Shown here: positions 8,483 to 11,375 of the stretch, one piece after another
Numbering within the stretch: position 1 is the first letter of the stretch
Layout of the letters: every line of letters starts with the position of its first letter
From: a virus
IMG/VR virus record: IMGVR_UViG_3300000228_000029
Span: 1-28,948 of that record
DNA: 28,948 nt
Direction: 5' to 3' (one strand)
The notes under the pieces: generated by a model
Database searches by the model: none
Told to the model about the DNA's origin: nothing
The model's input: the letters and a program-made list of their open reading frames with translations, nothing else
Position numbers and translations under genes: made by a program

Positions 8483-8728
8483 GTGAGTAAATTAAGTGAT
8501 GTTGAATTGAATTTTGAAATAGACATGTCCACTGATAAAATCATGGAGATAATGAATAGGGTGGAGCACGCTAAACAGACAGCCATGAGCGGTCAGATAC
8601 TCCGAATAAAGATAAACCATAATACGTGCTTGGTATTCAAAGAAGTCGGCCACATGACTAAAGCGCACAGCCTTTTAGCTACAGAAGCGGCAGATAGGAA
8701 GGATAAAGAAGATGTCTCGGTGCAGTGA
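8483..8728 (+). CDS. Small hypothetical protein, 81 aa, upstream of the polymerase gene
   Basis: Not recognised. The short protein has helix, strand and helix segments, and an acidic N-terminal third with a basic middle. The GTG start is preceded by AAGGATTAGG. Its 3' end overlaps the polymerase start by 17 bases, and the polymerase ribosome binding site lies inside it, so it may serve partly to couple translation of the polymerase. No motif suggests a catalytic role. Confidence 0.7.
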   Translation: MSKLSDVELNFEIDMSTDKIMEIMNRVEHAKQTAMSGQILRIKINHNTCLVFKEVGHMTKAHSLLATEAADRKDKEDVSVQ

Positions 8729-11375
8729 CTGTAGTTTGCACAGAGCGTGTCGTAATCCGTTAATATCTGGGGATACGCTAGGTGGCGGCGTACGACCGGA
8801 TCTGATGATAGTTCAGGACTACCCAACATTTTTTGATGACCGTTGCGATTCCGTTCCAAGCGGCGATACAGAAAGGAAGTTGCAGTACCTCCTTGATGCA
8901 GCAAAGATAAACAAAAGTAGGGTGTATTTTACTAGTGCCATAAAATGCTCGGTAAAAACGGTAGGTGATATAAAAAATAAGAACCTAGATGCCTGTCGGC
9001 CAAACCTATTGCAAGAGATTAAAAAAGTAAGGCCGAAGCTAATTATTGTAATGGGTAAAATATCTCACCTGATTCTGACAGAAATTTCTTCTGTCTCTGA
9101 ATTTGCTGGTCATTTTTCTGACTTTTCATTTGAGTATGAAGTAGATAGGGGGGCGGCTGGGATTTCAAGACCGACGTTAAGCACGAAGATTCTTCCGACC
9201 TATAGTTTAGCCGTATCAATCAAGAAGTGGGAGTTAAATAAGGAAATCATACGGCACTTCATGAAAGCAAAGGAGTACTTAACATCTGGATTAATCAATC
9301 AGACGACGTGTCCTGCACCGAATGTAATACTGTCTCTTGAGCAACTTGATTCTTTTAAAAAAAGAGCAATGGGATATGAGTCTGCTGCTACAGACTGTGA
9401 AACCACGGGATTTGAATTCTTTAGGGATAAAATAATAAATGTTGGCTACGCAAACGATCTCGGTGTTGATATTCTATATCTAACGCCTTATGAAGAGGAA
9501 CACATAAAAGGCTTTGATTTGGCTAACCAGCATCGTGCTAGAAGAATAAATTTATTCATAAACACGAATGGTGAGAAAATAAAATCTGTTCTTGAGCAGG
9601 TAAATAGTCATGTAAAATTAATTTTACATAACGGAAAATTTGACAGTAAGTTTACAAGGTTTAACGGTTTCCCGTATAAGAGACTCTACGCTGATACTCT
9701 TATAGCAGACTCACTGATTGATGAGAACGTCCCGCATTCTTTAAACTTCTGTCTTGAAAGGCGTGGGATAGATTTTGGTCCCTATGATACAAAACTATGG
9801 CAGTATGTTAATAAAGATGAAAATAAAAGAAAAACTTATCAGTTCGTACCGCCTCTAATCTTAGAAAAATATCTTGCATACGATGTTCATGGTGATTGGC
9901 TACTTTGGCAGAAGCAGAAGAAGGAGCTAGAAATTGAGGGTTTACTCGAGCATTTTTTTAAAGATAAGATGCCCGCGTTAAAGATGGTCACACATTCCGA
10001 GTATACGGGATTTAAAGCCGATAAGAGTTTAATACACGCTGTTTCAATATCTATTCAGAAAAAACAAGCTGATTTGCAAAATAAATTAGTCAGAATAACT
10101 AAGAACAAAGATTTCAATCCAAATAGCGGGAAACAGATATCAGAATTCCTAGTAAATAGCCACTACCCACTAGCTAGACTGAAGATTGCTGAAACAGCGA
10201 CGGGGTATAGTTCGTCAAAGGCAGAACTGGAGAAGTTCTTACCGTATAAGAAATACGCCGAGTTTCCGCAGGCCTTACTTGATTACAAAAAATTGATGAA
10301 GATAAAAGGTACATATGTAGATGGTAAGATGGGATCCGGGGGAATGTTGCAGTATTTAGATAGGTCTCACAGAATACACACGAATTACAATATGTGGACG
10401 CCGAGGACATCTAGGTGGAGCGCGAACAAACCGTCAGTACAAGTTTGGCCTAGACCAATTAAGGGGTTACCCAATGCTAGAAATTTTGTCATACCAACTC
10501 GTGGCTGGAATCTGTTTGAAGCCGACTATAAACAACTAGAGCAATGCGTGGTTGCGGCATTGTCAAAGGACAGGGCACTTATTGATAAGATTAATGATAA
10601 CACGGATCTTCACTGTTTTAATAGCGTGTACATTGGGAAGCAGTTAAAGAGCATTGATAACTGGGTATCTTATGAGCACATGCTGGTTGCAAACGATAAG
10701 CACCATGGAATTCTTGATGAGACTACAGTAAAGGAGCTTTTAAAAGATATTGAAAAACATGGAGTGTCCTTTGACTGGAAAGAAAAAAGAACGCAGGCAA
10801 AAAATATAGGTTTTGGGCTGAATTATGGTAAAGGCGCGAAGTCATTTAGTGAGGAATTCGGTATATCAGAGGACGAGGCGCAGAATATGATAGACGCTTA
10901 CTTTGATCTGTATCATGGGATGAAATCGTGGAGAGATAAAATAATAAAACAGGCACTAACAACGGGTGTAATAATGCTTAGATCAGGAAGAAAACGCAGG
11001 TTTACTGCAGCAACGGATTGGCTAAACTCAGATTTATCTGATAAGGTCTGGTCTGCTAAAATGCTTAGAGAAGAGATAGCGCGTCAGGCAATGAACTTCC
11101 CAGTACAGGGTGGAGCGCATGAGGTATTTGAGCCGGCCTGTGTAAGGCTAGCCAATCGTTTTAAAAAAGAAGGGCTGAGAGCAAGATTGATGCTGTATAT
11201 TCATGATGGTTTAGTCGGCGAGTGCCCGACCGAGGAAAATGAAGCAGTATCACGTATTATGTCTGAGGAGCTAACTCACGTATTTAATAAAGATACCGCT
11301 TATGAGCTGACACTAGGTATAGATAAGGATTTTTATACCGGATGCTGGTACGGAGAAAAATTTCACTTGAGATAG
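8712..11375 (+). CDS. Family A DNA polymerase with N-terminal UDG-like domain and 3'-5' exonuclease
   Basis: An 887-aa replicative polymerase with three modules. Residues 1-200 resemble family 4 uracil-DNA glycosylases. Cysteines 4/7 and 79/95 (C-x15-C) match the 4Fe-4S ligands, but the GxPG-type motif reads VQDYPTFFDD and the HPxxL motif reads PTYSLAV, so glycosylase activity is doubtful. The proofreading domain has D228/E230 (ExoI), N307 and D311 (ExoII) and Y387/D391 (ExoIII). The polymerase domain has motif A DYKQLE (605-610), motif B R693-x3-K697-x3-F701-x3-YG and motif C HDG (831-833). Canonical motif C is HDE, so the second acidic residue is replaced, although D605 and D832 remain. UDG-like domains fused to phage polymerases have been noted in SPO1-type phages. 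The start at 8712 has AGGAAGGA upstream. Confidence 0.93.
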   Translation: MSRCSDCSLHRACRNPLISGDTLGGGVRPDLMIVQDYPTFFDDRCDSVPSGDTERKLQYLLDAAKINKSRVYFTSAIKCSVKTVGDIKNKNLDACRPNLLQEIKKVRPKLIIVMGKISHLILTEISSVSEFAGHFSDFSFEYEVDRGAAGISRPTLSTKILPTYSLAVSIKKWELNKEIIRHFMKAKEYLTSGLINQTTCPAPNVILSLEQLDSFKKRAMGYESAATDCETTGFEFFRDKIINVGYANDLGVDILYLTPYEEEHIKGFDLANQHRARRINLFINTNGEKIKSVLEQVNSHVKLILHNGKFDSKFTRFNGFPYKRLYADTLIADSLIDENVPHSLNFCLERRGIDFGPYDTKLWQYVNKDENKRKTYQFVPPLILEKYLAYDVHGDWLLWQKQKKELEIEGLLEHFFKDKMPALKMVTHSEYTGFKADKSLIHAVSISIQKKQADLQNKLVRITKNKDFNPNSGKQISEFLVNSHYPLARLKIAETATGYSSSKAELEKFLPYKKYAEFPQALLDYKKLMKIKGTYVDGKMGSGGMLQYLDRSHRIHTNYNMWTPRTSRWSANKPSVQVWPRPIKGLPNARNFVIPTRGWNLFEADYKQLEQCVVAALSKDRALIDKINDNTDLHCFNSVYIGKQLKSIDNWVSYEHMLVANDKHHGILDETTVKELLKDIEKHGVSFDWKEKRTQAKNIGFGLNYGKGAKSFSEEFGISEDEAQNMIDAYFDLYHGMKSWRDKIIKQALTTGVIMLRSGRKRRFTAATDWLNSDLSDKVWSAKMLREEIARQAMNFPVQGGAHEVFEPACVRLANRFKKEGLRARLMLYIHDGLVGECPTEENEAVSRIMSEELTHVFNKDTAYELTLGIDKDFYTGCWYGEKFHLR

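Follow-up and report, generated by a model that had tools for sequence, protein, structure and literature searches.

A UDG-like domain with conserved predicted cluster ligands and changed catalytic motifs at the N-terminus of a viral family A DNA polymerase

UDG folds attached to viral DNA polymerases

Fusions of a uracil-DNA glycosylase (UDG) domain to a family A DNA polymerase (UDG-PolA) are already known from the SPO1 type and from phage PaBG. The available excerpts of the PaBG paper (PMC7412058) report UDG-exonuclease-polymerase proteins in all 11 'Lupandier' jumbo phages and assume a fidelity role for UDG-PolA; they contain no discussion of the active site of the UDG domain. The cluster of family 4 and family 5 UDGs has been described as giving the enzyme stability, above all in the loop that two of the cysteines anchor (PMC5295032). 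Vaccinia virus needs its UDG, D4, to replicate DNA but does not need the catalytic site of D4 for this (PMC2630940), and D4 can bind DNA that carries no damage (PMC4450493). Thermus phage G20c Pol I (7r0k) was considered as a further precedent and set aside, since the accessible part of its text mentions neither glycosylase nor uracil. In the openly accessible full-text literature, no account of a recurrent loss of catalysis with the ligands retained came to light.

Organization of the fusion protein

The window analysed here, meaning the whole stretch of 28,948 bases, is a fragment of an uncultivated virus (IMG/VR). It carries a replication module that encodes a DEAD-type helicase, a primase-helicase, the polymerase, an SSB-like protein, a UvrD helicase and RecA, together with SbcD/SbcC-like proteins and a Holliday resolvase. 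A 757-aa ORF on the plus strand (359-2632) is without Pfam or PHROG match at E 0.01. A scan of genome contigs for the host returned distant polymerases only. The polymerase ORF encodes, in order, a UDG-superfamily domain, a 3'-5' exonuclease domain and a family A polymerase domain (Table 1). A broken gene is ruled out by the open frame and the intact polymerase residues. The polymerase part matches DNA_pol_A (PF00476) at E 6e-67, and its five catalytic residues (D605, E610, K697, H831, and D832) are invariant in 48 sequences; among 48 relatives the exonuclease residues D228, E230, and D391 are invariant and D311 is conserved in at least 90%. The protein thus has the polymerase and exonuclease catalytic residues of a family A enzyme. 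The full-length AlphaFold2 model (pLDDT 93.9, pTM 0.90) has a short linker of about 10 residues between the UDG-like and exonuclease domains, and in Foldseek the full protein matches Bst and Klenow Pol I.

Table 1. Features of the polymerase fusion in window coordinates.
Feature	Position	Strand	Basis or conservation
UDG-like / 3'-5' exonuclease / family A DNA polymerase fusion, 887 aa	8712..11375	+	Pfam, NCBIfam, AlphaFold2
UDG-like domain, aa 1-192	8712..9287	+	PF03167, AlphaFold2, Foldseek
C4-x2-C7, predicted first cluster ligand pair	8721..8732	+	kept in 7/7 clade members
C13, fifth Cys, non-canonical as ligand	8748..8750	+	invariant in four nearest relatives
Degenerate motif A, Q35-DYPTFFD-D43 (canonical GE[AG]PGxxED)	8814..8840	+	alignment
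S75 replacing the uracil-recognition Asn of TNxVKC	8934..8936	+	alignment
C79-x15-C95, predicted second ligand pair and anchored loop SVKTVGDIKNKNLDA (clade form SD[IV]KxK)	8946..8996	+	
Degenerate motif B PTYSLAVSIKKW (His to S165, Pro to L166); K172-W173	9195..9230	+	K172-W173 clade-invariant
3'-5' exonuclease domain, approximate boundaries; D228, E230, D311, D391	9318..9941	+	residues conserved
Family A polymerase domain, approximate boundaries; D605, E610, K697, H831, D832	9942..11372	+	residues invariant

The N-terminal domain is recognised as a member of the UDG superfamily by Pfam PF03167 (aa 28-174, E 4e-10, above the curated cutoff). The NCBIfam family 4 match spans aa 2-191 and lies far under the curated cutoffs: TIGR00758 (UDG_fam4) aligns to aa 4-191 at E 1.7e-13 with 50.6 bits against a cutoff of 125.3, and NF040953 scores 54.8 bits against 250. 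The UdgX profile TIGR03914 reaches 27.5 bits against 189.95, and the GEQPG motif and KRRIH R-loop that define UdgX (PMC10359453) are absent from aa 1-195. An AlphaFold2 model of the domain built with 50 relatives (pLDDT 94.2, pTM 0.90) is a family-4-UDG-like fold: in a Foldseek search of the PDB its first matches are family 4 UDGs and UdgX (E about 1e-13 to 1e-11, TMq 0.67-0.73), and it shows the alpha/beta UDG fold (4zby, TMq 0.72; 1ui1, 0.73/0.79). The original prediction of a UDG-like domain fused to an SPO1-type polymerase is borne out by these matches.

The same prediction had pointed to cysteines that copy the spacing of the family 4 cluster, and this holds: C4, C7, C79, and C95 follow the family 4 pattern C-x2-C and C-x15-C, and the x15 spacing is identical to that of the stand-alone phage family 4 UDGs of KLEB27-3 and MTATph1. 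The family profile, the fold and the conservation all agree, which rules out a chance CxxC. The bound species at the four cysteines could possibly be zinc, or the site could be in an apo form, instead of the predicted cluster. All three signature positions, catalytic or for uracil recognition, are changed in the window protein. Motif A reads QDYPTFFDD in place of GE[AG]PGxxED, the uracil-recognition Asn of TNxVKC is S75, and motif B reads YSLAVSIK against HPSxLLR. In the multiple alignment KILPTYSLAVSIKK pairs gap-free with KLLPTFHPAMSLRD, so the lost His corresponds to S165 and the lost Pro to L166. The changes in motifs A and B had been noticed earlier, although the register then given for motif B was slightly off and the third change, Asn to S75, had been overlooked.

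Ligands and catalytic positions across the polymerase fusions

Searches of IMG/VR with a single protein, either the domain or the whole protein, returned no matches, so that alignments were required; among 51 divergent domains, once aligned, conservation was nowhere high enough to provide a scanning pattern. Six close relatives were obtained by alignment-based IMG/VR scans, with overall identities to the window protein of 50-53% (L022, L023, and L024), 45-48% (L105 and L106) and 34% (L107). All six keep C4, C7, C79, and C95. At the catalytic positions the seven proteins vary freely: position 36 (Glu in family 4) is D, E, Q, or A, position 75 (Asn) is S, Y, or H, and position 165 (His) is S, D, or G. 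The question raised with the original prediction, whether the cysteines are conserved in close homologues, is thus answered positively. With the four ligands kept in every close homologue while E36, N75, and H165 vary, retention of the predicted cluster ligands apart from the canonical chemistry is well backed at the level of sequence, and we infer that the window domain has lost uracil excision. C13 (Table 1) also occurs in some other fusions.

Could the domain still be a glycosylase, with altered catalytic residues or another base specificity? UDGs of other families do without the family 4 His or acidic residue, as in family 2 UDGs, which use GINPG and MPSSSAR without a His (PMC10359453), and D36, D42, and D43 remain in the window protein, position 42 being acidic (D or E) in 7/7 clade members. 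A new active site, however, would be expected to be fixed, whereas here three key positions have all changed and their replacements differ across the clade; the free variation at 36, 75, and 165 argues against a re-wired active site. We regard continued glycosylase activity as improbable.

The domain is under constraint. Pairwise identities within the clade are 40-56% for the UDG-like domain and 52-63% for the polymerase part, a rate of change for the domain that is just a little above that of the polymerase. Only 18 of its 195 columns are invariant among the seven proteins, and these include all four cysteines (naive hypergeometric p about 5e-5 for the four), K88, which lies in the C79-C95 loop, and K172-W173; the Lys and Lys-Trp residues are a lineage-specific conserved feature. 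It might be argued that the domain is an evolutionary residue without any DNA role, retained only because its deletion would unfold the protein. Divergence faster than in the polymerase core and the decay of both cysteines and motifs in some lineages would fit such a residue, but the invariance of the four ligands, K88, and K172-W173 over strongly diverged relatives does not, and we consider it improbable.

UDG-PolA fusions are found in Serratia phage Serbin, Pseudomonas phages PMBT14 and Lebethron, Yersinia phage P744, Lysinibacillus phage LysYB1, SPO1-like phages and ctfzr933; the fusion occurs in many phages, in the majority with intact catalytic motifs. We surveyed 170 full-domain fusions, mainly from IMG/VR. 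Asn and His are both present in 94 of them (four Cys in 84/94), Asn alone is lost in 22 (four Cys in 17/22), His alone is scored as lost in six (four Cys in 6/6), one of which, L087, is an alignment gap, and both are lost in 48, of which 31, in at least seven lineages, keep the four Cys. The search patterns, among them one over motif A, influenced what was sampled, and these proportions are therefore not population estimates; no pattern was centred on the N-terminal C-x2-C, and one had the fourth ligand Cys as its last position.

On a FastTree tree of the polymerase part, at least 17 changes between dead and active states are required among the four-Cys rows, a count that by itself carries no direction. 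Direction is read as loss because intact motifs are common to stand-alone UDGs. Losses that are nested among intact relatives on well-supported branches include those in L036, L027/L033/L056/L252, L304, L211, L306, and L037/L293/L064, and the same groups were recovered in a mixture-model tree (74 rows) and in a UDG-domain tree made without the signature columns. The window protein and its six relatives adjoin the intact L026 in the trees. A single ancient inactive UDG domain shuffled between polymerases is ruled out, since the grouping in the polymerase tree recurs when the domain tree is built without signature columns. Few supported pairs were available to independent-pair sign tests of whether His is lost together with Asn or Cys.

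The replacements themselves recur. A P-[ST]-x-x-D motif A together with Asn loss was found in 13 four-Cys rows (at least six changes on the tree), and His to Ser in motif B in 18 rows (at least 14 changes); the Asn replacement in dead fusions is often a bulky Tyr or His. Such shared replacements may reflect a shared new role or a shared relaxed constraint. One reading of the first kind is a non-catalytic base sensor, in which the pocket would bind a template base, uracil or some other, in front of the polymerase and stall it. The kept fold, the short linker to the exonuclease and the convergence of dead lineages on P-[ST]-x-x-D with Asn loss, which could be a shared new pocket, speak for a sensor; the uracil-reading Asn is gone, however, often to a bulky residue, and the pocket residues vary within the window's own clade, which leaves a sensor as improbable as a surviving glycosylase. 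A broader proposal is repeated conversion, in phage family A polymerases, of the fused UDG to one kind of non-catalytic, cluster-bearing module with a positively selected role, for instance that of a DNA clamp within the polymerase itself or of a reader for some base other than uracil, which would go beyond simple decay. Under such selection the P-[ST]-x-x-D motif A, the frequent T-Y-A for T-N-x and Ser for His would be convergent replacements. We think this unlikely.

Conservation of the four cysteines outlasts catalysis, and redox-active clusters have been reported for the family 4 UDG of Archaeoglobus and for further repair proteins (PMC9266487), so one might imagine that the cluster, by its redox state or by charge transport, switches the polymerase between levels of activity or of DNA affinity. 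A purely structural cluster accounts for the same conservation, however, and several lineages drop the ligands yet keep the fusion; a redox switch appears improbable. Some lineages without the cysteines retain the domain, namely SPO1 and the L265/L269/L242 group, and the fusion can therefore do without the cluster.

Several other proteins came up in the survey. In the clade of L265, L269, L242, L215, L280, L241, L267, and L247 the cysteines and the catalytic residues are gone and a UDG-like region is kept before the polymerase. Serbin, PMBT14, and P744 (L003, L004, and L017) keep four Cys and the motif B His and have Pro for the uracil Asn; thymidylate synthase and dCMP or cytidine deaminase genes adjoin their polymerases, and Serbin additionally has dUTPase and thymidylate kinase genes. 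L157:8311 and L158 have a 1294-aa ORF, far longer than the others, with an intact-motif UDG domain before the polymerase. In Pseudomonas phage hairong (L013:4432-4965, UKL14961.1) a DNA polymerase III alpha protein carries a C-terminal Pfam UDG domain (E 5e-15) that appears degenerate as well, with Ala for the third Cys, Ser for the Asn and Asn for the His; matches in nickie, ZY21, phiK7B1, and Nican01 are to the same annotated gene. In the T5-like Aeromonas phage Akh-2 (L009:1450-1899) the polymerase N-terminus aligns with the UDG core, to which Pfam is blind, and the polymerase of the T5-like phage Gostya9 gives a weak fold match. In T5-type polymerases a UDG domain may persist in completely eroded form.

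Possible role of the domain and comparison with known systems

The reading we lean towards, with a confidence a little above even, is that the N-terminal domain is a pseudo-glycosylase which, stabilised by its cluster, serves the polymerase as an architectural module or for contact with DNA. The evidence suggests that the fold now helps the polymerase to hold DNA and not to repair it. A family 4 UDG would have been catalytically intact when it was fused to a phage family A polymerase, and the window lineage would then have lost the water-activating, uracil-reading and His motifs while the fold and the four cysteines stayed. A [4Fe-4S] cluster bound by the cysteines would fix the conformation of the N-terminus and of the C79-C95 loop, and the resulting surface, with the basic and aromatic residues K88 and K172-W173, may touch DNA near the polymerase and exonuclease sites. 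Such a contact could tether the enzyme or place the template and so serve processivity. The clade-invariant Lys-Trp sits just after the position of UdgX R184 in motif B, a residue implicated in substrate binding (PMC10359453), a correspondence that is suggestive only. Of the three roles first put forward for the domain, a structural or DNA-binding one fits these data, while uracil sensing is less likely in the window domain because the Asn that recognises uracil has been replaced (by S, Y, or H within the clade).

The domain is not simply a clamp substitute, since PaBG-type phages, as described in the excerpts of PMC7412058, have a DnaN-like clamp in addition to UDG-PolA. No DnaN match and no second UDG-superfamily protein were found in the seven contigs, which are fragments, so that the DnaN result is weak; the T4-type clamp profile PF02916 matched none of the controls.

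These polymerases would separate two functions of a repair-enzyme fold, with the cysteine ligands outlasting the chemistry in many independent phage polymerase lineages, and with them the reason for which phages join a UDG fold to the replicase becomes accessible to experiment. Annotation of such enzymes as containing a uracil-DNA glycosylase domain may mislead.

Among described systems, the PaBG-type Pol I is likened to the window protein by its domain order as given in the excerpts of PMC7412058, and the SPO1-type Pol I likewise has UDG, 3'-5' exonuclease and family A polymerase in this order. The SPO1 relative SPO1L1 has lost the cysteines and kept the motif B His, the reverse of the window lineage, which has kept the cysteines and lost the His. 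Family 4 UDGs of Thermus, Sulfolobus, Thermotoga, and Archaeoglobus share the alpha/beta fold and the four-Cys spacing; the window domain differs from them in motif A, the uracil Asn and the motif B His, in being fused to a polymerase and in scoring below the family cutoffs. UdgX has its fold and cluster family in common with the window domain, and 8iil and 6ail are among the closest PDB matches, whereas the window protein has neither the GEQPG motif nor the KRRIH loop. Vaccinia D4 offers a comparison in principle, since here too a viral polymerase has recruited a UDG fold, and the part that D4 plays in replication does not depend on glycosylase activity. Unlike the window domain it belongs to family 1, is still active and is a separate subunit held through A20 on a family B polymerase; it is not known to have an Fe-S cluster. 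A D4-like processivity role for the window domain is proposed by analogy only. The poxvirus idea of a UDG fold as a polymerase part would then extend to family A and, in Pseudomonas phage hairong, to family C.
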